Shown: one piece after another, positions 4,195 through 61,200 of the stretch
How positions within the stretch are numbered: position 1 is the stretch's first letter
Layout: the number at the start of each line of letters is the position of its first letter
NCBI GenBank assembly: GCA_034620365.1
Contig: JAQGEQ010000071.1
Coordinates: forward strand, 2,542,001 to 2,606,000
Reading direction: 5' to 3'
Origin: Pegea sp. RAD2-039
Lineage: Eukaryota; Chordata; Thaliacea; Salpida; Salpidae
Length of the DNA: 64,000 nucleotides
The notes under the pieces: model-generated
Databases searched by the model: none
What the model saw: only the letters and a program-made list of their open reading frames with translations
What the model was told of the DNA's origin: nothing
Made by a program: the position numbers and the translations under genes

Positions 4195-4209
4195 AGAAAA
4201 AGATTGAGA

Positions 4210-7052
4210 ATGGCTTTGTTTCGGAATTCTAGCTCTTCTGTTGTAACATCTAAAAATTTAGTAGAATTTAAATGTGGAAAAATGTCAATTAAAGTAAGAA
4301 GCTCATAATTATAATTTTCGATTTTTATGAATTTAAAAAATTGAATGAAACTGAATTTTTGGTGGCTTTTTTGTATAAATTGATATATAAATTCTAATAG
4401 AAGAACTATCTTTCAAAACCAAACAATAAAACTTTGAGATATTAATGCCTTGCTGCCTCTGTATTGTATTATTGTTTAAAACTATTTATGATTTCTTTAT
4501 AGACTGCAATTTTTTTATGTCTTCAGAAGTTTGTCATTTAAAATGTACCTTTAATAACACCCAGTGGATTAATAGCTTTTTAATAGGGTAACTACAGCGT
4601 CTTCCCAACTACATCACTACAGAAAATTCTCTTACTTAAAAAATTTTTTTAAAAGTGTCTTGAGTAATTTGTTGCCAAATATGTGAAGCTGCCATTTCTC
4701 CTCTAATTTTGTATCTTATTCTAATTTTAACTTTTTTATACTTTGCATAAACTTGCCATATTAGTGTCCTATTTTTTTTACTTTTCTCATGTTGAGCTAA
4801 AGGTTCTTGCACTTTTTTATTTTTCTATAATTGTGTCATTCTCTGTTTGCTACAAAAGCCATATAATTTGTTATTTGCTGCTGCATCCATGTTAAATGAA
4901 TAAATAGATATTATTTTCAGGGAAAAATGGTGTCGCCCGATGAAAGAAAAGGGTTGTTGTACATCCATCATGGTGAGGACTCACTTATTCATCTTTGCTG
5001 GAAAGAACGCGAAAAAGCAAAAGCTGAAGAAGATTTGATCATTTTTCCTGGTTAGGGTTCAATTAAATTCTGTTGAAATTTTAGTTTTGAATAATTTTAT
5101 TTTTAGAGGACTGTGAGTGGAAAAAGGTGGCTCAATGTACTACTGGAAGAGTTTATGTCTTGAAGTTTAACTCCTCGGCAAGAAGAATGTTTTTCTGGAT
5201 GCAAGTAAGCTTTGCTTGATGAAGTTGTTATTAAGAGTTTACCGAAAGTTGAAATAAAAAGTTCAGATTTCAACAATCTCAATTTATATTTTATCTGCAT
5301 TTAAGGAGCCGAAGGAAGACAAAGATGACGAGCTTGCTAAAAAAGTAAACGAATCTTTGAATAATCCTCCAAAGATGATCAGAAGTGGTGGATCTAACTC
5401 TTCTGGACTTTCTGATCTTACTGATGCTCTTGGGCAAGGAAATCTTCAGGTTGATCTCTTACAAATCTTCACAAATCTATCTTTTAGTTTAATCTTTATG
5501 AGCAGGAGTTGTTTAATAATGTGGATCACCAGCAGCTTCTGCAGATGATGGCTGCTAGTGGAGGTTTGGGAAATCTTCTTACTTCACCAAGTTTGTTGTT
5601 TTGTCAACCTTTTTAACCAATTTGCTTGTTGAGAGTTTATCTATCCCTATACTCTTCCTTAAATCTTTTTTCCGGTGTATCTTTCATTTCTGGTCATCTA
5701 TCTTCGGACCTCGAAGCTCTACCGATAAATATTTTCACTTTTTTGACTCACATTTCCTTTTTAAGGATTAAATGTTGAAAATTGATTTAAGATGACTTTC
5801 ACTTATTCAAGTTGACACCTTGTTCTTAAAATGCCATCATTCAAAATAAATAAATTTTTGTGAAATTTCAGTGAGATCATCACGGACTACAAGATCTTCT
5901 TCAGCAAAATCTTCTACTCAATCAATTACTTCTTCAACAACTGAAACACAACCTGTACAATCAACTCCTTCAACTACGTTAGTCTTCTCTTTTGTGATTT
6001 TATTGAGTAAATTAAAAGCTTAAAGTTGATTGAAAGTAGAAATCAAATATTTCCAGTATTTCAAAGAAGACAAACAATTTCACTTTCAACTAGTAAATAA
6101 CAAAGGTCTAATCATCCATATAATTTTTGCTGCTAATTAGCAGATTTGTTGTAATAATTTGTAATAATTTCGAAAATTTAAACTTTCACTGATCATATTG
6201 AACTCATGAAAGATTTCAGAAAAGTTTTCACATCAACATCAAACTTTTGTTTTAATTTAAATTTTTATCTTTCAGAAAAACTTCAACTTCATCTTCTAGT
6301 CAGAACCCCGTCCAATTGAGTCAACTACAAAGTATTCTCTCTCAAATGGGAGTTCAAAAGCCAAAAACCCCAGGCATGCCTGATTTAATCATTACATGAC
6401 GTTTGTGGTATCAGAATAAATTAATCTTGACTTGAATTTTTATGTGCCCGTCTTTTCCAATTACTTTTAGTTGAAAGTTGTTGTCTTGTTTTTGTAGCTG
6501 TGGATCTTTCCGAAGCGCTCGATACCAACCTGATGATCCGAATCTTTTCTGACCCGAAGGTTCTTTTGGTTTTATCACAATAATTTTCATTTTATAATTT
6601 TCATTTTATAATTGTAATCGAAATTATATCGTTCAATTTTAATTTCTCTGAATTATTTAAATGAATAAGGTTAGAAATTGTTTTCAATCTCTACTCGAAA
6701 CAGATCAAGGAACGTCTTCAACCTCATCTTCCAAAAGGAACCGAATCATTAGGAGTGTTTGATGAGATCAGATCAATCCCAAGATCGCCCCATTTCAAGC
6801 AGGCCATGGCTTCTTTCAGTTCTGCCTTGGCTTCTGGTCAATTAGGGCCATTGCTTAGTCAGTTTGGTCTGCCACAAGCTGCAATTGATGCTGCTAATAA
6901 AGGAGGTAGAAAATAATAAGAAGAATATTTTTTGAGGTCTCAACTTGTGATGGTTTTTAGACGTTGAAGAATTTGCTAAAGCGATGCAAGAGTCTTCAGA
7001 AAAGAAAGAAGAAGCGGTTACCGAGGAAGATGAAAAGATGAACGTTGACTAA
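4210..7052 (+). CDS. ADRM1: Proteasomal ubiquitin receptor ADRM1/Rpn13
   Basis: Ten coding exons join in frame to 366 residues: 4210-4293, 4921-5050, 5107-5204, 5306-5449, 5506-5590, 5872-5977, 6276-6373, 6498-6559, 6704-6905, 6961-7052. The family binds ubiquitin chains through the N-terminal Pru domain at the 26S proteasome base and recruits the deubiquitinase UCH37 through the C-terminal DEUBAD domain. Seen here: Pru from about residue 17 ([47 protein letters not shown]), a Ser/Thr-rich linker, then DEUBAD ([44 protein letters not shown]) and an acidic tail ending NVD. Human ADRM1 has 407 residues, the difference lying in the linker. The intron at 6374-6497 starts with GC, not GT. The start follows an acceptor-like AG by 13 nt. 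A poly(A) signal AATAAA lies at 7157-7162. Confidence 0.96.
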
Positions 7053-7169
7053 GCAGGAGCTATTCATGTGTTTAGTTGTAAATTAATAAGCAACCAACAG
7101 TGATAGATTGGAAGCTTTCTTGTAGTTACGTTTTATCTATTTCTACTACAAATGTAAATAAATGTCAGT

Positions 7170-22918: not shown

Positions 22919-22956
22919 GATAAAAGAAGCAATTTTTTCAGTATTTAAAAAAGGGT

Positions 22957-24317
22957 CTGAAAAACAATAAAACTTCAAACATTTAACAATTGATTATTAT
23001 AAGATATTTTGATTAGTTTCGAATTATGATATTTATAACACAATGTTGATACCTCAAATTAAAATTCTGATCACGCTGTTAGACGAGACACAAGACTCAA
23101 GATCGAATTTTGAGCATAGAATTTGGTATCCCAACTTAACTACGAGCGAAACTTTTTTAATTTTATAAACTTCAATAAAGTTTTATAATCAACTGATAAC
23201 AAACAGTATATATGAGCGTTTAGATTTTACATTGACACACCAAAATAGCGCCACAAATCTTTAGTTTAATTAATCCTCGGCACATAATCATTTGTTCTAA
23301 TATGCATTAATTTCTATACTTATACCTTTAAATAAACTACTATACTTGTAAAAGTAAAATTCTTGTTCTTAAATTATTCTATATAGCTGAAAAAAGCTCT
23401 TCTGAGAAAAACATTTAGTAAATCTGAGTGACAATTTTTCGTTTTCAGTTCTCTGTAATGCCCCCGGCAATGCTTCTTCTCCTAAAATAGTTTTTTTTTT
23501 TTTTACTAAAATCGTTTTTGGTGTAAAGGTAGTTAGAGTTTGTTAAGATTTTTTTTATATATATTTCAGCTTTATTGTAATCAAAATACAATTTATTTTT
23601 TAAATATTATTTGTGGAATCAATATAATTACTCATAAAACTGACAAAAATAAAATTCTTAATTTATTTAATTAAATCGCAAAATAATATGTAGAAAAAAA
23701 CTCTTGAAGAAAAACCTAAAAGAATTAAAAAGATGAAGTTTATTTGATCAACCAGATTGTTTACTTCTAAAAAGTTAAGAAATGAACGTTTTATGAAAAA
23801 AGCAAAATAGATATTAAATTAAAAAAAAAAGTTAATGTTTTTTCAAAACTTAAATATTTTAGTTGCAGGTTTTCAAGTTTAATTCTTGATATGAAAATTT
23901 GTTAAATTTACGAGAGTTTAACATCCACTTATTCCTAGTTTTATGTTTATAGAAAATTTATAGCTGAACTTTAAAAATAAAAATGATTAAAATCTATTAT
24001 TGATGCATACCAAGATTTTGTTCGAATCTAAATTCCAAATTGATTTTTTACAAGATTATCAAGTTGTTTGTTGAAACAGATTTTGTTAGAATGATTTAAT
24101 AGTTTGTTTCTATTTGGTTTGAATAAACAAATACTTAATCAAAAAAATTAAAGTCAAAATTCAGGTCCAAACTTTGAAATATTTGAAATTAAATGATAAG
24201 AATGAATATTTAAAATCTTTGCAAGCAGATGAACAGATATGAGAACTTCGATATCTTATTCAAACCTCAAAGACAATTGTTTGAAGTGAAAAAATGATTT
24301 CTGAGTTTATTACAACT
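22957..24317. other. Gap, no gene seen
   Basis: This AT-rich DNA separates the Kunitz gene from the 3' end of the uL1m gene, both on the minus strand. It has several T and A runs (for example about 23490-23505) and no recognisable coding exon. It should contain the Kunitz gene promoter. Confidence 0.55.
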
Positions 24318-26541
24318 TTAACAAGTTTCTAATCTAATTGGAACATCTTCAGTAAAACAAAGCACAGAAATTCCGGTGATAAACTCTGTTGGAGTTTTCT
24401 GCTGTTTTGTATTTTCTTCTTTTTTAAACATCTGAATAACATGACGGATATTTGCTGCAACTTCTTCAACCGGCTGTTTCAGCTGCAACAAAATAATCGA
24501 CAAATTTGAATTGAAGCGAAAAAGAAATCGACTTCATATAAAATCTCATTTTTACAGATCAGTTTCACAATTGAAATAAATTGATAAAAAAGAATCAATT
24601 TCAAAACTTACACTGCCAACTCTTGTAAGACTCATTTCACCATTATTAATATAATTATCATACTGAACTCCCGTACAGCGAGATTTTAAAGTTGACAGTA
24701 TTTCTTCTTCGTTTGTATACCCTCTTCCTCTAACTGGCAAATATGATCCCAATTTTGCTTTCAACTCCACATGATCACTAACAACATGACCATAATTATC
24801 CATACATAGATATGAATCACATTTCATCGAGTTGTTCAGTAGCTGTAAACAAGAACATTAAATGGCATTCAACACACAAAGCTTTGAAAAAGAAGCGCTC
24901 ATCTGTTGACCATGACAGTTGTTTTGATAAATAAGTAATAATTTAAGCTGAAAATGGAATAATAGAACTTACCTGTCTGATAAACAAAACTCCACCTGCA
25001 TGAGCGGCTCCATTTTCTAAACATAGTTGTTCTATATGCTCTTGGGAAGTAAATACACCAACAATATTTTTATAATCGAAAGGAAAGGGAACTTCGGTGT
25101 TTTTTAGAAACATATGTGGTTTGAAAATACCCTGAAAACAAACATGTTAAACTTTCTTGATATCAGCAGTGGGAGAATCATTCCCTTAGTTATCGGGATT
25201 CTACATGGAAAATTAAACATCTAAATATTTTCTCAACTCAAATTTATTACAGCAGATAATCAAAAAATAAAACTTATATCTAAGATGTTCAGCGTTTAAG
25301 AAAATGCAATAAAGTTAGTCTAGTTACTTGATAACATTAGAAAGAATATACCTTGTTAGAGATTTATATAAATGTTTGGAATGTTTATACTATAATAATT
25401 TTATATAATAAAAAGTTGAATCATAAAGTAAAATAGTTGTTTCTACAAAAAAGTATCATTTTTAAATAAAACTTTATTTAATTAATATTTCTATACAAAT
25501 AAAAACAAATATCTATTTTACCTTTTTACGTTTTGAAGCTGCTTGTAATGGATTCATTTTAATTCTTAACTGAATTAATGAATTCTCATCTACAAAATCT
25601 AATTCTGCTATTTCCCTCAGATAACTAATAGACTCCTCCAAGCTATACATTTTGGGTTTATAATCTTTAATAAAATAGATATCGTCAACTGGTTGGTCTT
25701 CAATCTTCTTATGACTTGAAAATATTGGTGTTTGCTTTTGTATAGGTCGCCTAAAACAAAATAAAATTAATAAAAACAATTATCTATAAATATAATAATG
25801 AGATAAAATAAATTTTAAAGTCAAGCTTTATATAAAAGGTTATTTTGTTAGACAATAGTTGATATAAATAAGGATAGATAATCAAATTAATTATAAAATA
25901 ACTGACCCCATCGTATAATCAATTCTTTTATCTCCTCTATAAAATACTCTTCTTCCTCTAAAAGTATCATTTCTATGTAGATACTGAGTTTTATTGAACT
26001 CACACATCTTTTCCTCCCTGGTTACATTTCTTCTACTTAAACAACTAGAAATACAAATGAATCTACCTGAAAACATTTGCTTCTAGTTAATATAAGCATT
26101 TAAACTTCTAAATACCACTTTAATTTAAAAAAATCATTATACAAAATAATTAAATTAAATAAACAACTATTTTAGTTTTAAGTAATTATCTAAAACTTGA
26201 AAAAAATTTACAGAAAAGTTCTTGCTTAATTTAGCTAAATAAAATATGATATATTCTGTGGTAAAGCTTTCTATAAAATTAGTTTATTTTTAGTTTATAA
26301 GAAAGAATAATATAAAAGCAATTTTTTAAATCATAAAAATGATTATGGTGATAAATATATAATAATTATATAAATAGAAACTGATACAAGTTTAGAATAT
26401 TATTTCTATGATCTAGATAAAACTAAAGATCAGATAGCCATAAAATAAAAAAAACAAATTACTTGTCAGCCAAGTTGTATTAAATTTTCTAAATCCATTT
26501 GAACTTGTGTTTGAGAAAAATGAACTAAGGACTTTTGTCAT
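24318..26541 (-). CDS. MRPL1: Mitochondrial large-subunit ribosomal protein uL1m
   Basis: Six exons join in phase to 340 residues: 26541-26463, 26066-25907, 25750-25522, 25131-24973, 24842-24612, 24482-24318. uL1 proteins form the mobile L1 stalk of the large ribosomal subunit; this is the mitochondrial form. Seen: an N-terminus rich in Ser, Arg and Lys without acids (MTKVLSSFFSNTSSNGFRKF), typical of a mitochondrial presequence, then MYSLEESISYLREIAELDF and ENGAAHAGGVLFIRQLL, hallmarks of uL1, and a late helix PVEEVAANIRHVIQMFKK. I chose the start at 26541 because this exon supplies the presequence and its phase fits the next exon; the ATG at 26076 lies just before that exon's acceptor and is not used in this model. 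An acceptor-like AG lies 25 nt before the start. Confidence 0.9.
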
Positions 26542-26566: not shown

Positions 26567-28223
26567 CTATAAAAAAAGTAAAATTAGTTGATTCATATTA
26601 TAGATGTAAACATAAAAATTGTAATAAAAAAATAGTATATATTATTTTATTTGCAGTTTTATATAATAACAATTAACAAGTAAAATATTTATTGTTATAA
26701 ATATGATATAAGAGAAATTTAGAATTAATATATATAAAAAACACTAATTTAAAAAAATTACCACAGCTTTAAACAAATTAGAAACAATCTAAACTCAAAA
26801 TGATGTTTAATTAATTGAAAATAAAACTAATAAAACTAGAATTGCATTTTTGCTTCAAATTAAAAGTAACTATAAATGCAACTTTAAAAAATACATTTGA
26901 TAAAAATTTTACATTCCAACTTCATGTTAATAATGAGCTACTTATGAAAGAAAAAGTCGAAATATATACACAGATTTATATGAAATAACCAGAACATAAT
27001 TTAGGAAGATAATATAATAATAATATACACATGTGGGAAATGCCAAATTATTTTACTAAATATTTTCAAGGTTTTGTAAAAGTATATAAATTAGCAGAAC
27101 TAAAGTGGCTTATAATTTAAACGGCCTTGGTATAAGCTGTTAAAAGATTACCCAAACAAACTATTATAAACTATTACAAACTAGATAAATTAAGCGTCAT
27201 TTAAAAGTAAACCAACTGGAAATTGTAATGAACAAATAAGAAATAAAAACCATTTAAAATGACTTTCACTAGTTACGGTAAATTTTTTAAGCTCTTATGC
27301 GACCAGTAGCTGCAGTTATAATCTTACGCTCGCAAAATATCTTAGAACTTCTTTATTTACCAGTTAAATTAAATTAATAATGATTTGAAAATAAGTCTTG
27401 ATCAATTAATTTCAATTTTTACAGCAAGACTAGTTCAAATTTTAATTTTTAAGAATTTTATGTTTTCGAAAGTATTACTTGGTTGAATATCGTTCAAAAT
27501 AATCTACTTTAATAAGTATAAACATTGCACAACATAGTTTTAATTTTTATCATAACTTTTTCTAATTTTAAAAATCGATAAATATGTTTTAAAGATACTT
27601 TTAAAATAACTATCACCCATATTCTACAACACCAAACCTTTAATGTGAACAAGTTGAATACTGAGCTTAAAAATATATTTATTATTTTAAGCTGACATTC
27701 AGTCAAATATGACAAAAGTATCTAATTTTTTTTTCTGTTTGTTTAACTAATGTTTTTACATTTAATTTTTAACTCTTGTCATTGTCCTCTTATTCAATGT
27801 TCTTTTATATTTCATGAAAATCATTGATAAATTTTATACAATGATTATAATTTAATTTTTAACAATCTATTCATAAATTGAAATGGCTTCCAATAATATT
27901 TCTTTGTCCATAGATATATTTAAATACATTTATTTACTTCTAGCTTCTTAAATAGCATATTAGTATTTTTAGTATAGTAGTTTAAATCAAAGTTTTTTTG
28001 AAGATAACTTTTTTAAGGTGATAAAAGTCATTGCTTAGTTTAAGTGATTTTTGAACTATATTGTAAAAAGCTTTGTTACTGGTTAAAAATGATTAGTTTA
28101 AAAAATTACATTTATAGCTTAAAAAATAATTTTGTTCTATTTAATTACATAAAGTTAATTCTAAAAAATTTTTTTTTTCAAACATTTCTTTAACTTTTTG
28201 AAATTTTATTAAAGAAATTTTCT
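26567..28223. other. Intergenic, divergent 5' ends of uL1m and NDUFB2
   Basis: The two flanking genes, both of mitochondrial function, are transcribed away from each other, so this 1.7 kb should hold both promoters. I could not pick out defined elements in the AT-rich sequence. No coding exon is apparent. Confidence 0.55.
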
Positions 28224-28241
28224 AGCTGGCTTCAAGTATTA

Positions 28242-29360: not shown

Positions 29361-30766
29361 AAAATGAAATATTTTTGATCACTTGTAGCGCTTAATATTT
29401 CATTGTTTCATTATAAATAATTTAATATACATTTTCCTGAGCTTCCTAAAGCAGCGTTGGTCATTTTTTCAGTTTTCAAAGAAATAAATCTCAAATATAA
29501 TAAAAGTTTATTTAGTGAAATTATGTTTTCCAATTTTCTGGTTTGTTTTGGTTCAGTAAACAAATGAAAACTTAAGATTTTTTAGTTGCCGAGTTTTTCG
29601 AAAATAAAGAAAGGTGAACAACTATTTCTTTTGACAGTTACTCATTTATATGATTATATCATGGATACTAGTCAAACTACTTATTATAGCTCAGGTTTAA
29701 CAACGTTCTTATAAAATATCGACAAGCAACCACTTGGTAATTGAAAGCAAGTCATCGAGCGAATAGATGATTTATTCAGACGTGTGTTCTATTATGAAAC
29801 TATAAATAATAATTTAATTACTATAAAGTAGTTGGTGTTCTTCAAATTTTGCAAAACTTTGTGAACATCTTTTAGGTTGACTTATTTAAATTGATTATGA
29901 TAAAACACTTTCTAAAAGATTAATGACCAGGTTTGCAAACTAACTTTTCAAACAATAATTACAAAAATAACTTAATAATCTTTATTTGGTCTGCTCTGAC
30001 GAGAACGGCCATACATATATGCACCAGGGTAGAAGTTATGGTGATACGGTTGTTGCCTATGCAGCAGGATTCCACTCTCCACGCCAGCCAGGTTATGCAG
30101 TGGAATAGACATACTGATGTAGCTACTCCCGGCTGGTGTCACAGGAGCTGCCAGAACGACACTGAGTACAGCGATAAACTGCCTATCGGCTTTAAATTTG
30201 AAGTTTCACATCTCCTAGAAGTTGTATCGTTAACCAGACTCATAGGGCCCTTCTATCCGGGTTTCTTATGGATCTTGTCGCAAATATGTGCTCACCTGGG
30301 CTGAAACCAAAAACTTCCCGCTTGATAGGCGGCTATGGTAACTGTTACACCAAATATTGTTTGTAATTGAGTAATACATTCAACAAAAGTTTATTGATAA
30401 CCGAGTGATGTTGTTGATGAGTAAAACTAACTTTAAGAAATATTTGTATCCTTAATACTTCATGCAAGCTTTTATAAAAGAAACTCAAAGAGTGTAACGA
30501 AAGCGTAAGTGATTAAGAAACTTGTGTAGATATCAAATTGAAAAATTTTTCTACTCATGTTTATTTGGTTAGAAAATTTTCTCAAACAGCAATTACTCTT
30601 ATGTTGAAACAAGAAGAGATTAGTGCCAAAAATAGTTTTAAAAGGAAAATAATTTTCAAAAAATGTTATGATTTTGTGGAAAAAGTAAAATAATTTAACA
30701 ACCAACGAAAAACAGAAAGAATATAGCTTCACAAACTTCAACAAAAACTTGTTGATATTCAAATGC
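29361..30766. other. Gap between convergent NDUFB2 and SVIP, carries a SINE
   Basis: The gap contains NDUFB2 3' sequence with poly(A)-like hexamers (about 29480-29505) and the SINE copy annotated separately. Nothing else is supported. Confidence 0.6.
29985..30350 (-). mobile_element. tRNA-derived SINE, copy 1
   Basis: This is a GC-richer segment homologous to the copy at 37925-38245. Shared blocks include gcagcaggattccactctcc, ggttatgcagtg and ggctttaaattt. Read on the minus strand it opens with a degenerate tRNA-like head: the A-box region is near 30340 and a decayed B-box (about 30298-30308) has lost the canonical TTCGA. Copy 2 has better boxes and shows the polarity. The two copies differ by many substitutions and small indels, so this is an old insertion. 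Frames reading through it are fortuitous. Confidence 0.8.
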
Positions 30767-31145
30767 TTAACTAACATTCCATTTTAAACTAGTTCCTTGG
30801 TTATCATAAATACGGTTTCTTTGTTCCTGTTCATATTTTTCCATTTTCTAAAAGTAAATAAACATTTTAGAAAGTAATAAATATGCTAATACATTCCACA
30901 GTAATATAAAATAAAGTTGAACAGGCTTTATTAAATACCTTCTGTTTTTCTTTTAATGCTCCTGGGTTTTTAATACCTCTATTTTCAGACTGTTTCATCC
31001 TCTTTTCAGCAGCTTCCAGCATTTGTTGGCGTTTAGTTTCGCTGTCAGGAGTATTATTAGAAGAATAATGTTTGAAAGATGAATGATGGATATTTTGAGG
31101 GGTTAAGGAGTCGTCTCCAGGTAAACAACAACATAAAGAGCCCAT
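30767..31145 (-). CDS. SVIP: Small VCP/p97-interacting protein SVIP
   Basis: Two exons (31145-30939, 30847-30767) give 95 residues. SVIP is a lipid-anchored adaptor that binds the AAA ATPase p97/VCP and restrains ER-associated degradation; it also acts on lysosomes and autophagy. Seen: MGSLCCCLPGDD, with Gly2 for N-myristoylation and three Cys for palmitoylation; then RQQMLEAAEKR, an exact R-x5-AA-x2-R VCP-interacting motif; then a Lys/Glu-rich helix and the end SLKWNVS, closely parallel to the LRWTVS end of the human protein. Human SVIP has 77 residues; the extra length lies between anchor and motif. A Met 13 codons upstream in frame is disfavoured because it would bury the acylation site, and an acceptor-like AG lies only 7 nt before the chosen ATG. 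Confidence 0.9.
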
Positions 31146-31152: not shown

Positions 31153-33046
31153 CTAAGTATAAATAAGCGTAATAAATAAAACATTTTTTTAAATCAAAAC
31201 TAATTTTTTTAATATTTTATTTAAATAACTTTTGTTAGCTAACATTTGATTAAGTTTTTAAGAAATTAAAAATAAACTTTTTATTAAATGAAAAAATAAA
31301 AGACTTAACAATGAATAATAAAAAATAACATCGTATTCATTTTCCTTAAGATAAGATTATAAAAATATGGAATAATAAAAGTGTTTAGTAAAATATGTTT
31401 AACTTATGAGAAATTAAAAAGTTAAATGCTTATGTTTGTTTACATTACAGATAAAGCCTAATAGCTACAAATATTATAAAAATACGTAACAATTTCACCG
31501 GTATTTAAAAGAACTACCTAACCAATATCCAAAAATATAAAAATAAAATATAAAAGTACTTACATAATTGTTTTTAAACTTCACAGAAAAGAGTTGTATT
31601 TGTTTAATTGTTGATAAAATTGTAGAAAAGTCCCTAACCTGCAATCCTATAAAATATTTAGATATTTATCAAATAAAATTATTGCTGCATTAGATAAAAA
31701 AAAAAATCAAATATAAAACAGTTTTACAATCATATAATAAACTTTATTTCTTGGAAAAACATTCCTTATACATCTGCGTGTCTAAATCTGATTTAGAACA
31801 GTATTCTAGTGGTCATAAATTATATTTCATTAGAATTGATTAGATCAATGTTTAAGCTTTACTTATATAAATTTGATAGACAGTAAAATACTTGCCTTAT
31901 GAAATTAGGCCATCGAGAGGCACTTAATTTTATCATTTTAAAAAGTCCTCCAAAATCATTTCAGAGTTCATAGATTCCTCCTATACTACATGGAAATCGA
32001 ATATCAATCACATACAATTTTTAAGAACGAAAATTTTGTGGTTTCTACAAAATAATAACATACAAACATACTTAAGCGCTAGCCTGCCAAAGCAGATATA
32101 AAAAATCTCTTTTTTCAATTTAAATTTTTGTTTTATATATTCTCAAGCCTAACAGCAATGTTCAGCATCCTAAGCAAAGGCTTCACTGGCTCAGACATGT
32201 CTGTCGAATGGAGGACGGACAGATCTCAAAGAATTTGTTGTTTGGAGAGCTATCAAAAGGCAAACGCAACACCAGCCGTCCCTGTATCTGCTTTAAAGAT
32301 CTGTAAACCTGATCAAGAAGAACCGAATCAAAATGCCCTGACTAGTTTCTCCTCAAATTATAAGCTTTTAGTGGGAAGCAGTTACGCTGAAACATTGATT
32401 CACAACGCCCATCTTGCTGATAGATAGAAATAAGAATATGTTCATACTACTAGAAGAATAATTTGTGAACAAATTGGCTGTAATTTTTAAAGTTGGGTTT
32501 AAGTTTTAATGCAATGTAATAAAAAATTTGAAGAAAACTCTAACCTTACCCTAAATAAAACTAGTTGTATTAACAAAAAATAAACGTGCAGAGTATCATT
32601 TTATTACTTCAAATTCAAGTAAAATTTATAACTTTTTTTGTTTCATACAAGACCATAAGATAATAGATTGATGAAGAAACTTAAGTGACAGGGTCAACTT
32701 AATTTTCCACCATGGATAAAGAAAAAACAAAACTTAGAGTCAAAATGTAATCTGAGTTGTAGAAATTCTGTTCGTAAAACTATTTTTTCAGGTAAATTTA
32801 AAAGATTAAAAAAGACTCTAATGTATATAATCAATTTTTTATATTTAAAAGTTTATTGGTGAAAAATTTGACAAGAAATCAATACATGTGAATGATTTTT
32901 AAATATTTGATAAATTGCAAATAAAAAGGATATCATCAAAATTATTTATCATAAAACTTTGAATTTAATTTATTGCTTTTAGATAGAAATGTTGGCGATA
33001 AATTCAATAAATAAATAAGAAAAATGAATGAAAGCAGAAAGATGGT
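31153..33046. other. Gap between SVIP and COMMD9, holds a LINE relic
   Basis: AT-rich except for the retrotransposon fragment at 32163-32306, annotated separately. No other coding signal is seen. Confidence 0.6.
32163..32306 (+). mobile_element. Fossil 3' end of a LINE-type reverse transcriptase ORF
   Basis: One frame reads LHWLRHVCRMEDGQISKNLL then FGELSKGKRNTSRPCICFKDL before a stop. This is the characteristic segment found after the reverse transcriptase domain in many animal non-LTR retrotransposon proteins (GHVxRMxDxRIPKxLLxGEL, GxRxxGRPxxRxKD). It is about 48 codons with no detectable flanking element protein, so it is a dead, 5'-truncated fragment. A different 99-codon frame across the same DNA is accidental. 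Confidence 0.8.
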
Positions 33047-33933: not shown

Positions 33934-34141
33934 TTATTTTAGATGCAAACAAATTAACTCAAGCTTTAAATAACAATTAACGCTGTTGATAATAAACACA
34001 AAAGATAAGAATTCAAAAAAATATTTATTTTGAGTAATTTTTCAAAGCCATTAATGAACAAAATCGAGTTAAAATGACTAATATTGAAAAGCACAAAAAT
34101 TAATTGAAAGTAACAACAGAACAGAAGCAGGTAGTTGATGT
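33934..34141 (-). promoter_or_regulatory. TAF7-COMMD9 intercistronic region with poly(A) signal and 3' splice site
   Basis: On the minus strand a consensus AATAAA (34029-34024) follows the TAF7 stop by about 110 nt. Forty nt further on, tttattatcaacag ends at 33983, an acceptor-like site, and the COMMD9 start is 49 nt after it. This order and spacing is that of operon junctions in animals with spliced-leader trans-splicing. An ordinary compact gene pair with a 5'-UTR intron is the alternative, but such an intron would have to start inside or upstream of TAF7. Confidence 0.45.
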
Positions 34142-36308: not shown

Positions 36309-39192
36309 CTAAAGATTATAAAGCTGAATAAAATAAGCTACAAAAGTCTTAAAAACATTCTTAAATTATTTCATAATAAAACTAAAGAATAGTCATGACA
36401 AACATGATTATGGTATTAATGATCTATGATAGAATAATATATTATTTGAGTATAATATAAAGTACTATAAAAATTAATATAAATAGAATTTAATTGTCAA
36501 ATTTATTCTACATAATTTATCTTATAATACAAGATTCTGTTAAAGAAATACAGAATAAGATTTTAATGAATTTTTAAAAATTAAAATAAAAAAATAATCT
36601 TGGAGAGTAAGAAATTAAAAATATCTGAAAATTTAAATCAGCCATCAATAATAATTCTAAAGAAATTACACAATTACTTATTTTAATCGAAAATTTTATT
36701 AAAAAATACTGATATATTTTGATTAAGCTTTCCATGGTTAAGTTAATTAAAATTTTTATCAGTTTCTGTTACTAGCCAACTACCAGAAAAGTAAAGCTAA
36801 ACCATAACAGCTTTAAATAAATGTTTTTATACTAAAAGGGCGATACCAACTATTTTGGCTGATTTATATTATATTTTTTAAAAGAGATTTATTTAAACAA
36901 TTTATAGTAAAACAAAATTTCTGTTGTCAAACTTTGCTTGTGATTTTATGAATTTTATTTATTTTATGTTATAAAATATTTTAGAAAAAAACTTGATAAA
37001 AAGTATAAGCCAATGATTGAAACTAGGTTTTAATTACTTATTTTTAATAAATAGATTTATACACACATGGGAAGAAAAACAATATTATCTAATTGATTAA
37101 AGCTTAATTAAAAATATAAACCCATATCAAACACTAATTTAAAAATGGGAAGCTTATTTAAGTCATTTTAAGCCATCTTTCTTGTCCTACCATAATAAAT
37201 TAATAAGTAACTTAAGTTTGCTCATTATAACACTTGAAAACTTTTAGCCTAATCTTTATTACAACTTCAACATTTATGTGCTGCTTTTTACATCTCAATG
37301 ACTCACTCTAAATTGAAACGCCTTATCAAGAAATCCTTAATGCAGCTTTTTATTTTGTTTTCACGCAAATCTGATAAACTTTAGAAAAACAACAAAAAGT
37401 CCAACTACAGCAGAAAATTTATGATTTGTTGTTTAATATGTTCAAGATGAAACGATCTAATTTTCATTAAAGTCTTTTTAGCTATCATTTTTACGAACAA
37501 TCATAAATGACAGCAGTTTTTTAAAGCTCGTGAGTGCCACAAATCAAATGCTTCAAAAGATAAACTAATTTTTTTTTTTTTTTCTTTTTGATCTACTAAG
37601 TTCATGAAAGGATCCATTCTGGGCAACGAGTTTTTCTGCTCTTCTATTTTTCTTGTTATTAACAACATATCTATTTAAAGTAGGACCGGGTACTATAATT
37701 ATTTTGTAATAGCTTTAGCGACGCTTATGTTAATAACCGGTTACTAAGTAGGTGGCGGTGAACTGTAAAATAGTTTCTAATTAAAACAAAATAAGCTTAA
37801 AATACTCAAACCAGATACTCAAAAAGTATCTTTAGGAACAACATCAGACTTTTCAAGTTCTTGTGATTAAAACTCTAGAAAATCATTTAAATATGTAATG
37901 TACAAATGGATTAAAGATTATTCCCTGCTTCGGCCGAGAACGGCTGTGACAGTAATTATAAAGATCTAGGTGCAGCAGGATTCCACTCTCCACGTTAACA
38001 AGGTTATGCAGTGTAACAGACGGAGCTACTAGTACGACTACGAGTACAGTGACAAGCCGCTTATGGGGCTTCCATTCTGGCTTTAAATTTGGAGTTTTGC
38101 TTCTCCAAAAAGTGCTGGCATTAACCAGACTCCCTTTTATCTGGGTTTTTATAGTCTTTTCCTCGTCTCAAATATTTGTCCACCTGGGCTCGAACTTGGA
38201 ATGTTTCGCTTGGTAGGCGGGTGTGGTAGCCGCTATACCAGACAGATGAATGATTTTTTACTAGTAAAAAAATAACTACTGTATACTACTTTGCAGATTT
38301 ATAACTTTGTTACAAAAACTTTCCAAAAAACTTTCCAAAAAACTTGCAGCTTCAAAGTGAAAAGTATGTGACTAAAAGTTTTTAAATTGTCTTGTATGAT
38401 CGACTAAATACAAATAAAAAGTCTCTTTAATTGTCATCTAAATATACATATGTTTATAAAAGTGTGGTTATAAAAAGGCTTTCGAAAATATTTTTCTAAA
38501 GAGTTGCAAAAAAGTTTTGAAACAGTAGTTCTAATTTCTCTAAGTTAGACTAAGCTTTAGAAAAAAGGGTTTAATTTTAAATAAACAAAAAAGGTTTGGT
38601 TGAAAAAGCAAAATTGATAATTCAATAAAATACACAATTTAAATTTATAGATATAATTCAAAGGTGTTGCTGGATTATAGGATAACAATCTGAAGAATTA
38701 CATTTCAAAATTGACGTGTTGAATCTGCAAAACTTTTGATCTAAGAAAAGAATGTTGCATCTGAAAAATTTAATCTACTTTAAAGCTTTTTATCAAATTT
38801 ACTTGTGGCAAACAAAACCTATCGGTTTACCATAAATTAAGTCTTCTAAATTTTCAAACAGCTTTTTTATCATTTTTAATTTATTGGAAATCTATCTTTA
38901 AAATAAAGTATAGATTTTAATCTTCTTAGAAATGTTTTTCTTTATCATAGGGTTTTAAATTCAACATGTATTAGTTATATTTTTTATTAAAAAATAAGTA
39001 ACAGCATCTTTTTACACAAATTTATTTTATTTCTCAAATTCAAGTTTAGCAAATATTGACTCTTAATAATTTTTTTCAAATAAATCAAGTTATGGTATAG
39101 ATGGATTAAAGTAGAAGTTGCACCAATACTTGAACACAATAAAAGAATTTTACTTTCATGATTTTTACATTGTATGGTTAACATCATTATGT
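36309..39192. other. Gap between DUOX 3' end and TAF7 5' end, holds a SINE
   Basis: AT-rich, with the SINE at 37925-38245 as the only recognised feature. TAF7 promoter elements should lie near 36.3-36.6 kb, but none is identifiable by eye. Confidence 0.6.
37925..38245 (-). mobile_element. tRNA-derived SINE, copy 2
   Basis: Read on the minus strand the element starts with a tRNA-like head carrying an A box (TGGTATAGCGG, complement of 38230-38240) and a B box (AGTTCGAGCCC, complement of 38186-38196), separated by about 33 nt as in tRNA genes. That makes it a Pol III-type SINE. The body of about 230 bp is shared with the copy at 29985-30350 and shows no resemblance to a protein. It is GC-rich compared with its surroundings. 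The 3' tail near 37925 is not clearly delimited and I could not define a target-site duplication. Confidence 0.85.
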
Positions 39193-46611: not shown

Positions 46612-48833
46612 TTTAAAACTCTATAACTTAAACAAGGAATTCTGAAATGAGAAAAAATAGCAACATCAAGTTCAGGTAGATTAAATTCTGAATGCTATAT
46701 CTAGATTGACTTCTTCTCACTGATTTATTACTTCTAAAAGCACTTTAAGAAATACCTTCTTTCGTTTACGCTTTTTTGAATGGTATAAAGATACTGAAAA
46801 TATGATACTAACGTAAACGTGATATTTTCTGCAAAAAATGAAGAAGACTTCAAAAAATAGTTTAAGCGGTTTATCTATTCAATTGATCTTGCATCTTTCA
46901 CTTCATATATAACCTAGTATTATTGATATAGTTTCAATAAAATATTTTTGTTTCTATCTTTTTGAAAATAAACTTTTAAAACACTCAAAATACATCTACA
47001 ATTTATATTCAAGCAACAGTAATGTAAAATGAATTTTAAAAAACAAGTCTTGTAACCCATATTTTGTTCTAACAAAAAAGTTTGTGACATTCTATCTACG
47101 AGCTCAGTTATTTTATACCCTTAGCTTAACCGCTAGTAGCATATTAAGGTGTGATAGTCTCTTTACATATGATTGAGGTTATAATTACGATTAAAGTTTA
47201 TTTGCTAAGAAAAAATGATTTATTTATTCTAAATACTAATAAAGATACTAAAAGCTCAATGAAAAATACATTCAGTCGATTTAACTATTTAATGTTTGAA
47301 TTATGAAACTAATAACATTTTCATAAACTGATATTCAAAAAAATATAAAATTCTAAATTATACTAAAATAAAGTTTTATTAATATTATTTCAAACAGAGC
47401 TATTTAAAAACTATTTATTTTACTTTTGTTTACTCAGTTAACAAATATAATAGTGATAATCACTTTACAAACTTTAAAAACTTTACAAACTTTAAGTATA
47501 GAGGTAATTGAGGTTCCAGGAACTGTTGAATATAGGTTTTGATTCAAACTCCTCAATGAAGCAAACCCAAACGTTTCTTTGTTTTTACCTTTTTAAGTTG
47601 TTACTCCTCTTTGCTTAACTTATTCATATATTTCATTATTTGAAAATGGAAAGTTTTAAATAGTGGGTTAAAGAAGAAAAGATTTAGTCATCGTTACAAA
47701 ATATTTGTTGTAAGAAATCTTTCCCCAAAAATTTCCAATGAGTGGAAATTGAGTATTTATTTTTCACTGCTAATTTAATATATGGTTCTTTAATTTGCAT
47801 TAAACATAAATTTAAATCAACAAACGTGATGATAAAAATTATTCTTTACAGATAGAAGTAGTCTCTTTCATTTGATGATAAAGTAAGGGCCAATGAAACT
47901 TTGCTCTATACAGTTTGGAATTCTGCATTTATTTCAATGATTCTGTACTCAATAATCTTCCTCAATTTATAGAGATAACTTAAGTCTCAATTGGTTATTT
48001 TATTTTGGTTATAACATTTTATATATTTATTATATAACTCAGTTCAATTATTTTGAAAAGGTTTAGTCTGATGTAAAACATTATTTGTATTTCTGATTTT
48101 TAAGCTTAAAGACTTTGTACAATTTAATAGAGTAATAAGACATTATTCAATTTTTTGCGTTTATGTCTTTAATTTATTCTCAACATGAGAGCATTATTCT
48201 TGTCTTTAATATGGATTTACAATTGTTTGAACCATGGGTTGAGTTAAAAATCAATTTTATGTTTAGTTAATTATTTTCAAATAAACTAAATGAACTATTT
48301 AATCTCGTTGTTTAAATTGAAGTAAATACAATTTGAAAATATTAAGGTCTTTTTAACTACCATATATGATTTAGAATTTATGTTCGATATTTTAAACAAG
48401 CTTAAAGTTTTATTGGGAAGATTTGAAACTCATTTTTATAATAAAAGAACTATTTGGACTGCTTGAATGATTTCTTTAAACATACTTTTAATAGCAAAGT
48501 TTTAGAAGTTGCTTGTTTTAGTAAACTAAAGTCAATTTGGTTAAACATTTAGTAACTTTCACAAAGTTCAATCAACTGTGTAACGTAATTCGATCGTTTT
48601 ATTTAAATTAAATTCAAGAAAAGAAGCCGTATTGTGTAAGAAGTGTTTATTTAATTCGTAATGCCTAAAACTACACATAAAGATATAATTTTCGCGACTT
48701 AAATTTGTTTGAAAAATTTAGTAAAAATCGAAATGAATTTAAAAAAAGTGAATTTAACTTAACAAAAACATAATAATAAAATGTTTAAATTATCACTTAA
48801 TCGATTCATTTTAAATCTAAATTAGAGATCAGT

Positions 48834-50070: not shown

Positions 50071-50311
50071 TCACGGTTGAGGTTATTTAACAAGCGGATG
50101 ATTACTTGATCATACGAATAATCATAAGACTCATTTTTATATTAAGTTCTAGTAGCTACTGAAACTTCACTTACTAATTAACTTTCTTTTATGAATGAAG
50201 TTTATTTTAAACAAATAGATTTGTGATTATGATGATGAGTTTAAAACTGAATTCAAATTTGTTTGCAGCTAACTTATTCACAATTTATTTAAATCAACAC
50301 TAAAAAGTGAA

Positions 50312-53300: not shown

Positions 53301-53452
53301 ATATGTCTGTGAAGAATGAAACAGGATCTTCCTCATCTTCCGTTGTTCTTGATCCATCGCAAGACACAGCTGCAGAAAGAAGAAGAAAATCTCGAGAATA
53401 TTGTACCCATAAGCGCCGTACTTGGTCTCACTTGTTAGAAAAAAAGCCATAA
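50312..53452 (+). CDS. MuRF-type TRIM E3 ubiquitin ligase (TRIM54/55/63 family)
   Basis: Nine exons join in phase to 592 residues: 50312-50514, 50571-50712, 50950-51099, 51157-51252, 51509-51631, 51742-51875, 52318-52448, 52506-52819, 52967-53452. MuRF proteins are muscle RING ligases that bind sarcomeric titin and microtubules and control turnover of contractile proteins. Seen: RING ([20 protein letters not shown], later CPTCRYEV, split by the first intron); the MuRF family-specific [20 protein letters not shown]-box 2 ([35 protein letters not shown]); a coiled coil; a COS-type box ([20 protein letters not shown]); a long acidic, then Ser/Arg-rich tail. No NHL, SPRY or FN3 domain follows. 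The tail is longer than in human MuRF1 (353 residues) and resembles the long tails of MuRF2/3. Which vertebrate paralogue is closest cannot be told. AATAAA lies at about 53643. Confidence 0.93.
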
Positions 53453-54721: not shown

Positions 54722-57700
54722 TTATAAAGAACTGTTGTATCCAAGGACGGTAAAGTCTTTGTTGTACATTTCAGTTAAACGTTCTAGAACAAACGGATTT
54801 AAAGTGTACATTGTTTGTTTGGTGCTACTCCCATTAACAGCACTTCTTTGCTGTTCAAAGTAGACTTGCTTATCTTTAGGAACTGATCGTTGTAGGTACT
54901 TCAATAAATGATCAGAATCTTGCTTTAAATTTGAAAAGTCCACAATGTAATCATACTCAACAGCACAAGGATTACAAAGATCCGTTTGAGGGCGCCAGTG
55001 CACATCTCCTAAATGTTTTGAAGCTTTGCTATGTTGGTAGATAACAAAGCTGAAAAAATAAGATTTAGAAAGAATCTACAAAGGCAAAATAAATAAAATA
55101 TAGATTTTAAATTTAATTTCTTAATTATTTCTAATAAAAATTCCTTTTAGAAAGTAGTCTACCTAGCAAACTTCTTAAAATCCACTGTTCCAGTTCTAAA
55201 AGAAAACACAGCATCACGAACTTCTTGCTTCTCAAGATCGTTTAAATCTTTGAAAGCAGCAAATTTCTCGAGAGCACTGATGTTAGCACGAATAAATTTT
55301 CTGTTAAAAATAAATAGCTTCTTAAAGTGTCCTAACGAAGAGAGATTTCAAAATTGTAGCTAAAAACAATCATATTGTGTTGCTAATTTATTCAATAATA
55401 CTTCAAACCTTTTGTCAGTTGTAAATGTTAGTTACTTCAGATAAAGACATGAGAAAAAGATTTATTTGTAAGAAAAACATTTTGTTTCAGACATTTTATT
55501 TATACAAAAGTTAACAAGGCTTTTTTTGACAACTAACCTTACGGGAATACCATAAAGAAACTTAGGTGTAAACATTTCAGCTATTTTTCGACCCGCAATT
55601 ATTTTGTATTCACGATTTGTTGACCGTTTTGAAAGCTTTGAGCCATAAGCAGAGATTAAGCGGTCAAAAGGATGTCTTTTAACAAAAAACTTCGTATATG
55701 TCCTCAGCTTTTCAAAAGCTTCAGTTTTGTTGGGCAACCTATAATTTAGTTTAATTATTTTGCGTACCAAATTAAATTTTCTTATATTATACTAATTTCT
55801 TATTATGCAAAAAAATAGTAAATAAGTTTTTCTTATAAAATATAAAAAGTCGTTAGATAATTTTGATCATTCAAATTTTGAAACAATCTTTGATTAATAT
55901 TTAAAACTATTTTTTGAAGAATATAAAAAACCGTTTAATATTGTGGTAGATCAACTCGCTGTAAGCCTCACAAAATTTACTTTAAAAAATAAAGTTTAAT
56001 CTGGCTTTAATCTGTCAGTTTAAAATGTTTGATAAAAATTTAATAAAACAACAATTTGAAACAATTGGCTTCATTTATAATGTGAAACAATAACCACGAA
56101 AATTTCTTTGCTTATGAAAAAAAGAACTTTTCAAATATCTTTGTTTTGACTCTAAGAACTTAAACTCTAAGAGCTTGAACTCACTTGCTCAATGTCTTTA
56201 ATTTACCATAACCTAAAGTCAAATAGTTACTATTAATAGCTCTGAAGTTAGGTCGTCCGTAGAAATGCCAAAAAAATCTTTTCCATGATGTACACGCATT
56301 CTATAAAAAGAGGAAATCAATACGAACAAAAGATTATATTAGCTTAATAAAAGCAATCTTTTTATGAAAAGTTTAAATATTACTTCCTAAGATTATATAC
56401 GATTAAATAAACAACTTTTTGTAATTCAATGTTTTCAAACATTAACAAATTTGGCAATAAAAGGAAGCTGGTAAATTTAAGAGTTCTTTTTTGATAAATC
56501 ATGAAATGATAGTTTAATAAATCCATATAAATTTATTAAAATAAAACTAAATCAAGAGCTTACAAGAAAAAGATTTCAAAAACGCTAACAACAAATATAC
56601 TAGATAGTAAAATACAACTAGTGTTAGTAAGCTATCAGCTTTTATCTTGAAAATTCAACCTATAATCGTTCAACAAATACCTTTGGAACAACACACATGA
56701 CAACCTTTCGAGTATCGTCGTAGATAAACCGTGAAAGATCGACTTTGAAGTCATTATATCTTTTACATCTTTCTTTAGTTTCTATCAGTCTTGATGAGTA
56801 ACTCCCTTCTCTTGAAACCTGATGAAGTCCTTTTCTTTCTGTAACAATGATTAGTACTTAAAAGTCGATCCTAGTGGTCTGCATACTTCACACCTAATAA
56901 ATTCTGACCAAGAGGTTTCAATTGTATAAAGTTTCTGGATAAAGTATAGAAATATTTGTTGCTTGAATAATTTCTAAAAACCCTGACGATTTTGTGTGGA
57001 TTGTAATGAGATTTTATAAAGCCTAGGTTTTCAGTTCTTCCGAAATGTGCTGGATCATTTTTTGATTGGATGTTATTCGGCTTAGAATAAGTCAAATTTC
57101 TATTTTCATAGATCTGATAATTTTTTGAATCAATTTGAGATTGCTCAGTCTGGAGCTGATTTTTAATTGTCTTGATCTGATCTACTTTTGAAGGGATCTG
57201 ATCTTCTTCTAAAAGGGATTGTTTCGGCTCAGATTGAATCTGTTTTTCTTTCAGCTGAATTTTATTATCTTCTGATTGTAACAAATTCTCCTCAGAATGG
57301 ATTTGATCTCTTGCTGGTTGAACTTCATCTTCTTCTGGTTGTATTTGACCTTCTTCTGGTTGGACTTGTCCTCCCTTTGATTGGACATGATCTTCTTCTG
57401 ATTGGACATGATCTTCTTCTGATTGGACATGATCTTCTTCTGATTGGACATGATCTTCTTCTGATTGGACATGATCTTCTTCTATTTGGACATGATCTTC
57501 TTCCATTTGAATCTGATTTTTGCTTTGTTTATTTTGAATCTGATCTTCTTCTAGTTTGATTTGAGATTTATTCGTTCTTAGAACTTCTCTTGGATCCTGC
57601 AAGAAGCAAAAGTTAAAAAAGCATTTTTCGATACTTTTGTTTTTAGCAAACTTTTCTTCTTTCAATTTCTCAGTGTTCTTATTAATTTTAATATAAACGA

Positions 57701-58212
57701 CGTTTTTGGGTTAATTTTTACATATTTTTATTACTTTTCTATATGAAGCCAACATTTTATCATGAAATATCCATAACAATGAATAATTTATCGGATGTGG
57801 GTTATGGTGAAGAGTTTTATTGATTTTTTTCCACCTTACGTCATATCTTACGCTCCTCAACCAATTTCTTCTTGTAATCACTTAATTTAACGAGTTTAAA
57901 ATCGGGTTTTACTTATAGACAACCAGCTATGGGTATTTTCAACGAGAACATGTTAATGAAGCAATCACCTTTTACTAGTATGCTGTTGTACACGAGTCAA
58001 AAAAGGGTGAACAATTTTGAAAAAAAGTTTTATCAATTCCGGCAGTTTACTGAAATTGTTTGTCAACTCATTAAAAAATATCTTACTTTTGGTCTAGACA
58101 CATAGCTTGTTTGTTGAGCTGTTATTGAAGAGTCATTTTGCCAGTATGTTAAAATGCTAACAGTGAATGAGATGACGCAAACACAAATAAAAGTTTTCTT
58201 GTTTGTCTTCAT
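54722..58212 (-). CDS. Golgi carbohydrate sulfotransferase (CHST8-14/HNK-1ST family) with repetitive stem
   Basis: Seven exons join in phase to 589 residues: 58212-58087, 57596-56894, 56838-56681, 56300-56185, 55738-55538, 55300-55163, 55049-54722. Family members move sulfate from PAPS to GalNAc, chondroitin/dermatan or glucuronyl glycans in the Golgi lumen. Seen: type II anchor (MKTNKKTFICVCVISFTVSI, then LTYW); a stem of some 230 residues in one large exon, dominated by heptads of the type EEDHVQS; then the catalytic domain with the 5'-phosphosulfate loop VPKNACTSWKRFFWHF, the 3'-phosphate strand FVKRHPFDRLISAYGSKL, and the family C-terminal motif HWRPQTDLCNPCAVEYDYIV. Potential N-glycosylation sites include NYSS, NISA and NGSS. 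Human relatives are about 350-440 residues; the excess is the stem. The exact substrate cannot be read from sequence. Confidence 0.93.
57381..57506 (-). repeat. In-frame 21-bp tandem repeat in the sulfotransferase stem
   Basis: Four identical 21-bp units (57381-57464) and two more with one or two changes (57465-57506) encode the heptad EEDHVQS and variants on the minus strand. More diverged heptads extend on both sides, covering about 57150-57560. The length 21 keeps frame, so copy number can vary without breaking the protein. The same DNA gives a long accidental frame on the plus strand. Confidence 0.95.
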
Positions 58213-58230
58213 ATCTTAAACATTATACTA

Positions 58231-61200
58231 CTAATAAATTAAAAGTAAGAATAAAGTTTCGACAAAGTACAAACAACTTTGATTTTTTGAATAACCTCAA
58301 TTTAAATGCAATATAATGCTTAAAAGTTTATTGAACATCAAATGCTACAATTATTTAAAAAAAGTAAAAGTTGAATGAAAATTAGTGAACCATCTTTTTA
58401 AAAGCTCTCTTAAATTTATTAAAAACTAATTGTTAAAAGAATCAAATTACATTTTTGCTTTAAAAATTTCCTTATTTACATTCTTTTTAAACTCTTAAAC
58501 TCTTGCTTCAATGCTCATTAACATTCTTTTGTACTTTTGCGATTTTTGCTACTTGATTGCATAGAAGGTGATATAAAGTAAAAAACTAAAAAATCTAGTT
58601 AAGTTAATATAAAATAAACTAATCTAATAAAGTAACTCAATCATTTTTTCATTTTTCTCAAATAAAAACATTTCCAGAACTCTGCTTTTTTAACACTTTA
58701 AGGGTTTTTCTAATCGTGATTACCAAGTAAAAATAATAAAGATTAAAAAGCAAAAGTCTTTGAGAACAACTTTTCCGGCGCTGTTTAAAAAGTTCTATTT
58801 ATCTTGAAATGAATTTTAAGTTTAAACTTTTTCTTTTCAATATAAAACCAAACTTTTATACAATTTCAAACCATCATTTCATCATAAAGTTAGGTTACTT
58901 GAGTTACAAAATCAAATTGATGTAATTCAGTTGATATACAAGATGAGATTAAGCTTTACCTCTAGGAGTAATTAAATGGAAATATAATAGTCAGGGATGT
59001 ATCTTTAATGAAAATTTAAAAGCAACATTATGAGTTTCTAAATATAGACAGCATAGAAATTGTGTTTAAACCCAGTGATGTGAAAACTATTTGAATTTTT
59101 TTACATTCGTTTGTTTACTTTGAACATAAACTTGTAATTGAGTAAACAAAACAAAATAGATTTTTGAAATATTAAAAACATCCCTGTAAATACTTATTTC
59201 AAAGTTTTAGCTAAAAGTTGAGATAAGTTGTTAATGGAGTGAACTACTAGAAGTAAAAATGAATTGGAGCCTTATCACCGGAAGTTAATTTCAACATCAG
59301 AATTGACTGCTTGAAAGATTTTAAACTCTGAAGTGTAAAGTTTTTTTTTAAGAAAACAACAATTTGGTTTTAATTATTAATTAGTTTATAAAATACTAAA
59401 TCATAAACACTCCGAAGGAAAAAAGCAAAAATTTAGTGTCTTGTAAATTAATAAAAGAGAAATAATTTTGTGAAGTAGCTGGCTTTGAAGCGAAAAAAAT
59501 ATGAAATAATGAATTCAAAAGTTTTGAAATTCTTATATTTGCAAAATGCTTAAATAAATATCGACTTTTTCAACGACATCCTTAAAGTTAAACTGTATAA
59601 AAACATCTCAAACCAAATTGCAATGTATTATCAATTTAAAACCTTACACTAAAAATCGATTTTTATGTTCTTAAAATATTAAAGCCTTAAGTCAAGATTA
59701 AGCTACTTTTTTCAATTGTCTAAGAAAATTGATATGATTCAAAACTAGTTGCATCACAAACCAAGACATCAACCTTGGGGGCATTTCAAAAGTGGCTTCT
59801 ATTTACTAGCATCATATGACACTAATCTAAGTAGAACCTAAGCAATTTAAGACTGTTATCAGTTACTTTTACTACTAAGCTTTTTATAGTAGCAAACACA
59901 TAATATATTTTTTATCTTATAGCAGGTCCCTGACTTTTTTATTATCAATAATGTTAGTAATATTTCTTCAAAATAAAAATTACCTGACATTTTTCATATT
60001 TGATAAAAGTGTATTTAACATCTCAATTATTTTATCCAAAAACAAATTTATTTAAAGAAAATGAAAAGAAATTCTTGCTAATATCTAAACACTTAGAGCT
60101 TATTTCAAAAGTATTTAAAACCAAAGTTGTTCAGCGAATAAAACTGCAAAATGCTAACAGTTCAACTTTTTATTGTTTCATTTTTAAAACTATTGAGACA
60201 TCATTGAAAATTCATTCATCTTTATAATTTCCACCTTTATGATTTAAAAACTTTTCAGTATTGAATGAAAAATGTAAAATTTACTAAATCGCATTACTGA
60301 CTAAATGCTTCTAACATAGAACCCAAAAAATGTGCTAAACTGTAAAACTATTTTATAAAATCTACAAAATTTTAAACAATTGCCTGCGAACCTATATCTA
60401 AATCAGTAAAATATGTAAATGAATTTCAATGAACTCATTGCAAATACTATAAATCATAAGAAACTTCTTTTTTTCTTTTTTTCGCAATGTTTCTTTTTTT
60501 GTTTCTTTCTTACTCATCGAGAAAATACGATGAAAAAGTTGTTTTTCAGCTTTTTAAACAACGTTTTATTTGCACGTTTTCACAATATTTTGATTGTTTA
60601 TTTTCTTATCGGAACTTTTTTGATCAATAATTAAGTTTAGGATAGTTCTGATAAATTTTAATAACTTGTATTTGTTTTAAATGTTAAGGTTTCGCAAAGT
60701 ATTTCTAAATATTGGTAAAATAGATGGTAAAATCAGTTAGTAATCAAACTAAGACTAAAAATATCATAAAACTATTTATGACACTAGAGAATTTACTTGG
60801 TCGAGTTTAAAGCAATACTTAAATTATTAACTTCATTACAACTTAAATTGGCAGTTTCCATCAATTTTTGAGTTGAAAGAACCTTATGAATAAAAACAAA
60901 AGGACTATAAAAAGTATGTTACGTAAAGCTTTTAAATGGTTGAAGTTTACAAAAGAAAAGAAAACAAGAATTTGTAGCTTTGTCTTTAAAAAGAATAATT
61001 ATATTCTTTAACTTTTTTCTACTATTAACTTCTTTTTTTAAAGGTAGCCTTTCTACTACTAATTTCCTTAATTACGTCATGTGACTGAAACTTTATTGTC
61101 TGACGAATAACGTACTCATTTTTTTCAACCAACATTACTTAATACTAAGTTGGTACTATCTGATCATTTTACTATTAATTTTTTCCAATCAATCCTATAA

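Follow-up and report, generated by a model that had tools for sequence, protein, structure and literature searches.

Tracts resembling 3′ splice sites end shortly upstream of the start codons of many genes in the genome studied here, whose assembly comprises 387 contigs and 105.7 Mb. We analyzed them in a 64 kb window (bases 2,542,001-2,606,000 of a contig 6.1 Mb long), in which a preliminary description had reported an acceptor-like tract ending in AG 7-49 nucleotides (nt) before each of ten start codons, and in an independent sample of small-GTPase genes. This signal is genuine; it is restricted to endings in YAG (Y, pyrimidine) and concentrated in the ~50 nt that precede the start codon, and the start-proximal sites are probably real 3′ splice sites. 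Whether they are mostly used, many of them through a spliced leader (SL) supplied in trans, we regard as an even question.

A YAG-specific acceptor signal close to start codons

The GTPase sample came from a Ras-family search of the whole genome, which gave 122 matches; 48 begin at profile positions 1-3, and 40 of the 48 were fetched as stretches of 391 nt. Twenty-eight canonical starts, placed by resemblance to their subfamilies, were combined with the ten window genes to give 38 tested starts. Six starts of lineage-specific GTPases were counted apart (L084, L086, L087, L088, L090 and L091), and six loci were excluded: L089 (methionine inside the domain), L094 (a near copy of L087), L098, L101 and L107 (no in-frame ATG) and L123 (ambiguous). 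The divergent Ras-like genes (L084, L086-L088, L090, L091 and L094, on C20, C32 and C40) appear to be lineage-specific; several lie close together, and most have a single open frame across the whole matched part.

Sites were detected with one expression (three or more pyrimidines, an optional base of any kind, then YAG), which was written once and never tuned, over the distance range of the preliminary description. A match was present 7-49 nt upstream of 27 of the 38 starts, compared with 35/150 for windows of the same size that lie 93-264 nt upstream (p = 7e-8). Successive equal windows further upstream held matches at 9/38 starts (50-92 nt) and then at 7/38, 12/38, 11/38 and 5/36, the last four being pooled as the background. 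The GTPases alone gave 21/28 against 25/110 (p = 5e-7). YAG ranked first among the 32 triplet endings tested in the same expression (p = 7e-8), with the runner-up at 7e-4, and a 10-nt profile reached its maximum 10-19 nt before the ATG (13 sites in the 38 starts). An acceptor just upstream of many starts is a feature of SL trans-splicing, and this YAG-specific excess shows that feature here.

The base that follows the AG was compared among three sets of sites. At start-proximal matches (n = 29) it is A in 11, T in 7, G in 6 and C in 5; at internal acceptors the counts are A 14, G 9, T 5 and C 4, and at upstream matches T 18, A 14, C 7 and G 0. The start-proximal usage resembles that of internal introns and is unlike that of the upstream matches. 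A YYCAG-like transcription initiator, belonging to genes with very short 5′ untranslated regions (UTRs), would suit the distance of 10-50 nt; as the source of the signal it is scarcely credible, because the usage after the AG is spread, without the T bias (T 7/29) of a TCAGT-type initiator.

The expression picks up 19 of the 32 internal acceptors. With this rate, the background of 35/150 and the sampling error considered, the true share of genes with such an acceptor would be no lower than about one half and might approach all of them.

Strength of the signal under other tests

Several results weigh against this reading. The expression was written after the starts had been inspected by eye, and it found no match within 60 nt at 10 of the 38 starts, including COMMD9, SVIP, uL1m and the sulfotransferase gene; the statement that every start is preceded by an acceptor-like sequence thus holds for most of them and was too strong as made. 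A weight matrix was built from the 32 hand-placed internal acceptors (26 in the window, 4 at L009 and 2 at GTPase loci). At a score of 0 it distinguished the starts (29/38) from ATGs as a whole (806/1953). At a lax threshold the starts (29/38) showed no excess over upstream shifted windows (45/74, p = 0.14); separation was weak at a score of 2 (20/38 against 20/74, p = 0.012) and better at a score of 3 (15/38 against 9/74, p = 0.0014). None of the six lineage-specific GTPase starts reached a score of 2, at which the comparison with these starts added was 20/44 against 23/84 (p = 0.03). A mixture fit of the matrix scores gave a share of 0.56 with the shifted-window background (90% bootstrap interval 0-0.91) and 0.89 with the all-ATG background (0.38-1). 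The fit was also high, at 0.73, in a negative-control window 120-180 nt upstream, and this estimate of the gene share was dropped as too broad and non-specific. Near and far matches were not separated by the pyrimidine content further upstream (0.59 near and 0.54 far, p = 0.10) or by the AG-free distance (p = 0.15).

On their own, the ten window genes provide weak evidence, because 1222 of the 1953 ATGs on both strands of the window are preceded by a bare YAG at a distance of 7-49 nt; a pyrimidine run plus YAG was present at 6/10 starts, compared with 10/40 shifted windows (p = 0.044). These figures, together with the lax matrix result, favor the explanation that YAG strings precede any ATG by chance in DNA that is 72% A+T and has T-rich stretches upstream of starts. 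Chance is nevertheless very unlikely, given the excess in the independent GTPase set and the fact that YAG alone stands out of the 32 triplets.

Acceptor-like tracts and genes of the window

For each of the ten starts, we tabulated all AGs up to 60 nt upstream. The distances first reported were reproduced for nine genes (ADRM1, NDUFB2, MuRF, DUOX, TAF7, COMMD9, SVIP, Kunitz-trefoil and sulfotransferase). For uL1m, a distance of 25 nt had been claimed, and its upstream AGs lie at 3, 6, 28, 31 and 41 nt. The tracts are as follows; scores are those of the weight matrix, and matches are those of the expression.

4181..4196, + strand: ADRM1 acceptor-like tract, 13 nt before the ATG at 4210; score 0.39; match
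28210..28225, + strand: NDUFB2 acceptor-like tract, 16 nt before the ATG at 28242; match
50253..50268, + strand: acceptor-like tract of the MuRF-like RING gene, 43 nt before the ATG at 50312; score 2.96; match
46642..46657, - strand: DUOX strong acceptor-like tract, 30 nt before the ATG at 46611; score 6.62; match
36309..36324, - strand: TAF7 acceptor-like tract, 16 nt before the ATG at 36292; a higher-scoring AG lies at 36324 (31 nt)
33983..33998, - strand: COMMD9 acceptor-like tract, 49 nt before the ATG at 33933; score 0.9; no match
31153..31168, - strand: SVIP acceptor-like tract, 7 nt before the ATG at 31145; score -0.41; no match
26108..26123, - strand: uL1m best acceptor-like tract, 31 nt before the ATG at 26076; score 0.52; no match
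22957..22972, - strand: strong acceptor-like tract of the Kunitz-trefoil gene, 38 nt before the ATG at 22918; score 7.67; match
58231..58246, - strand: sulfotransferase acceptor-like tract, 18 nt before the ATG at 58212; score 2.5; no match

Seven of the ten genes have Pfam matches above the cut-off (ADRM1, MuRF as a RING gene, TAF7, SVIP, Kunitz plus trefoil, sulfotransferase, and DUOX through its haem peroxidase domain), as do the neighboring OATP and aspartyl hydroxylase genes of the window. The match of NDUFB2 is below the cut-off. COMMD9 and uL1m, for each of which one exon was tried, gave no Pfam match, and these two names are putative.

The G+C content of the window is 24-33% in 4-kb steps. 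An Rfam scan of the window found no family at gathering score, and ARAGORN found no tRNA in it. Two related stretches, at 29927-30304 and 37883-38216, have odd open frames on both strands and the common peptide VESGILLH, and are probably copies of one dispersed repeat. Near the sulfotransferase gene, a 279-codon open frame with tandem QSEEDHV-like repeats occupies 56871-57710 (- strand).

A closely spaced gene pair

TAF7 and COMMD9 are arranged in tandem on the - strand, with 208 nt between the TAF7 stop codon (34144-34142) and the COMMD9 ATG. This is the one tight same-strand pair noticed in passing, and its arrangement is operon-like.

33934..34141, - strand: TAF7-COMMD9 intercistronic stretch, with AATAAA, a T-rich run and an acceptor-like AG

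The AATAAA is at 34029-34024, and the COMMD9 AG ends at 33983, 41 nt past the end of the AATAAA. In spacing and layout the pair is comparable to the RFC140/flp operon of Hydra, a tested operon with a T-rich tract (PMC3273482). If TAF7 and COMMD9 formed a two-gene operon, the second message would be freed by cleavage after the AATAAA, and a leader would be added ~41 nt downstream.

Search for a spliced-leader RNA gene

A genome search for an SL RNA gene, proposed in the preliminary description as a check, brought none to light, and its negative results count against leader addition. The nematode SL1 RNA model (RF00198) gave no match in the genome at E values up to 10, with 50 of 41002 first-look candidates scored. 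Among the 5S ribosomal RNA (rRNA) loci, the Rfam scan covered L009, which L010-L012 overlap, and L013. Read by eye, the 5S array of L009 shows no SL RNA in its spacers, and an SL RNA within 5S spacers was rejected on this reading. The array (L009 1501-2782) consists of four tandem 5S rRNA genes plus a 5′-truncated piece between the first two, and a degenerate single 5S copy is found at C84:560000.

We also derived a promoter element of small nuclear RNA (snRNA) genes from U2 and U6. The distance from the start of CCACAAACNCTAARC or a close variant to the RNA is 57 nt in those U2, U3 and U4 genes that were read, as well as in one U1 gene; for U6 and RNase MRP it is 61-63 nt. With at most one mismatch the element has 624 copies genome-wide, compared with 80 in a reversed control (an excess of more than 500), and a shorter core has 123 exact copies compared with 1 in the control. 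Copies of the form CCCACAAAGGCTAA at C182:47750, 48785, 57135 and 58170 make up two pairs whose members are exactly 1035 bp apart, and further copies are found at C195:22054 and 76810.

The leader-gene query combined the snRNA promoter, a leader of ~13-43 nt, a G/GTR donor and a TTTTTG Sm site. Promoter, GGTR and TTTTTG together gave 1 match (C14:424660-424785) against 0 in the control, and a looser form with TTTTG gave 8 against 6. This search, which can miss genes, found no gene that is multicopy and combines the snRNA promoter with a donor and an Sm site. The negative is soft because genuine genes can escape a search with an exact promoter core: for a core slightly longer than that of the query, only 1 of 19 U1 genes (on C115) is among the 100 places listed of 123. 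A local scan for a promoter-like element, donor and Sm site was set aside (4 matches against 2 in the control, all from one C188/C224 repeat with a poor promoter match). Three of the matches to promoter, GGTR and TTTTG are 133 nt long and lie on separate contigs (C109:85488-85620, C261:12433-12565 and C286:28292-28424); they are possibly one repeated gene or element.

Clusters of U7-like RNA genes

The promoter element is not confined to known snRNAs; it also lies upstream of unannotated genes in large clusters, at which there is no Rfam match:

C188 and C224 (L036-L043, L051-L059): RNA family 1, 55 distinct members printed
C102 (L032-L035, L048-L050, L082, L083): RNA family 2, 12 of 13 printed members; the 13th, L079 in C64, is doubtful
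C72 and C94 (L064-L069): RNA family 3, one member printed, others read by eye
C24 (L077): a further unannotated RNA gene

The RNAs have a variable, subgroup-specific 5′ part, followed by an Sm-like site and a terminal hairpin. Between the expected start of the RNA and the hairpin lie 33-47 nt in the C188/C224 family and 30-54 nt in the C102 family, and the hairpin stems differ by family (AACCGC/GCGGTT; GTCGTC/GGCGAC in L077; GTTGAA/TTCAAC). When seven members were folded as single sequences, six of the minimum-energy structures and all seven centroids contained the hairpin, and the fold energies are mostly no better than those of shuffled sequences (z -0.4 to -1.3, with one at -3.9). The architecture is U7-like, and the RNAs are perhaps antisense guides. 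A literature search by listings returned nothing resembling these clustered genes in the entries as listed. Because no conserved G/GT splice donor was seen by eye in the 69 printed members, we do not call them SL RNAs, and the families are rejected as such for now.

Splicing in cis or in trans

We infer that the start-proximal sites are used. In most genes, a functional 3′ splice site would then lie 10-50 nt upstream of the ATG, and the 5′ end of the mRNA would be made by splicing. Less surely, many genes may receive a short leader in trans from an SL small nuclear ribonucleoprotein, with the outron discarded, and not carry a local non-coding exon. Of the proposal in the preliminary description that mRNAs receive such a leader, the acceptor signal on which it was built stands; leader addition is a plausible reading of this signal, and the searches made found no SL RNA gene.

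The same description was right that conventional 5′-UTR introns would also give the signal, and this too weighs against trans-splicing. In that case each gene would have its own short non-coding first exon, with a last UTR intron that ends near the ATG at the same acceptor consensus. An acceptor for trans-splicing and that of a 5′-UTR intron are indistinguishable in genomic DNA. We rate ordinary cis introns as quite possible, a little short of even. The lack of an SL RNA gene in the searches made agrees with them, and so do L092 (ATG, then GTGAG) and L099 (ATGCAG, then GTAAA), in which an apparent first intron follows right after the start; neither has a match to the expression within 60 nt. 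At ADRM1, donors were seen whose sequences are too degenerate for a call on visual inspection. Against cis introns, a UTR intron would have to end less than 50 nt from the ATG in what appears to be at least about half of the genes, an unusually large share, and little space is left in the 208-nt TAF7-COMMD9 gap for COMMD9 to have its own promoter and first exon. If half of the genes or more have an acceptor so close to the ATG, this would exceed what is known of 5′-UTR introns in animals that splice in cis only, and for this reason we lean, at an even chance, to trans-splicing. It is unlikely, though conceivable, that a lineage not yet known to trans-splice, set apart from the glass sponge examined by its Wnt genes and from the other groups named in the preliminary description by the lack of an innexin match, adds leaders to most of its mRNAs and that its SL RNAs are hidden among the hundreds of genes with the snRNA promoter.

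Comparison with other lineages

Hydrozoans are known to have innexins, as are the phyla named in the preliminary description. An innexin search of our genome gave no match, although this does not prove absence. Wnt exons are present in it, with 27 matches at about eight loci. Taken together, the two results argue against many candidate animal groups. Hydra, with SL-A, SL-B and other leaders, is likewise an A+T-rich animal; a T-rich tract and an AG closely precede the ATG, and the gap between tandem genes is short (PMC3273482, PMC7986045). Unlike Hydra, the present genome has no known leader or SL RNA and no innexin match.

Two non-bilaterian animals with small genomes have reported leaders in long cDNA reads, whereas none is known in the genome studied here: leaders are reported in 4% of reads of the glass sponge Aphrocallistes vastus (80 Mb; PMC10282587) and in 56% of reads of the ctenophore Hormiphora (110 Mb; PMC10282587, PMC8527503). 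Sponges are reported to lack innexins and the glass sponge Oopsacas to lack a wnt gene (PMC10280926); the Wnt exons distinguish the present genome from Oopsacas. The genome of Brachionus is similar to the one studied here. For Brachionus, one study records no leader in expressed sequence tags (PMC1925144).

Significance

SL addition occurs on scattered branches of the animal tree. One more lineage in which leader acceptors are pervasive, if true, would be a direct test case for how often it was gained and lost. The sharp YAG peak before the starts is readable from genomic DNA alone, and the exact positions given here are provided for testing.

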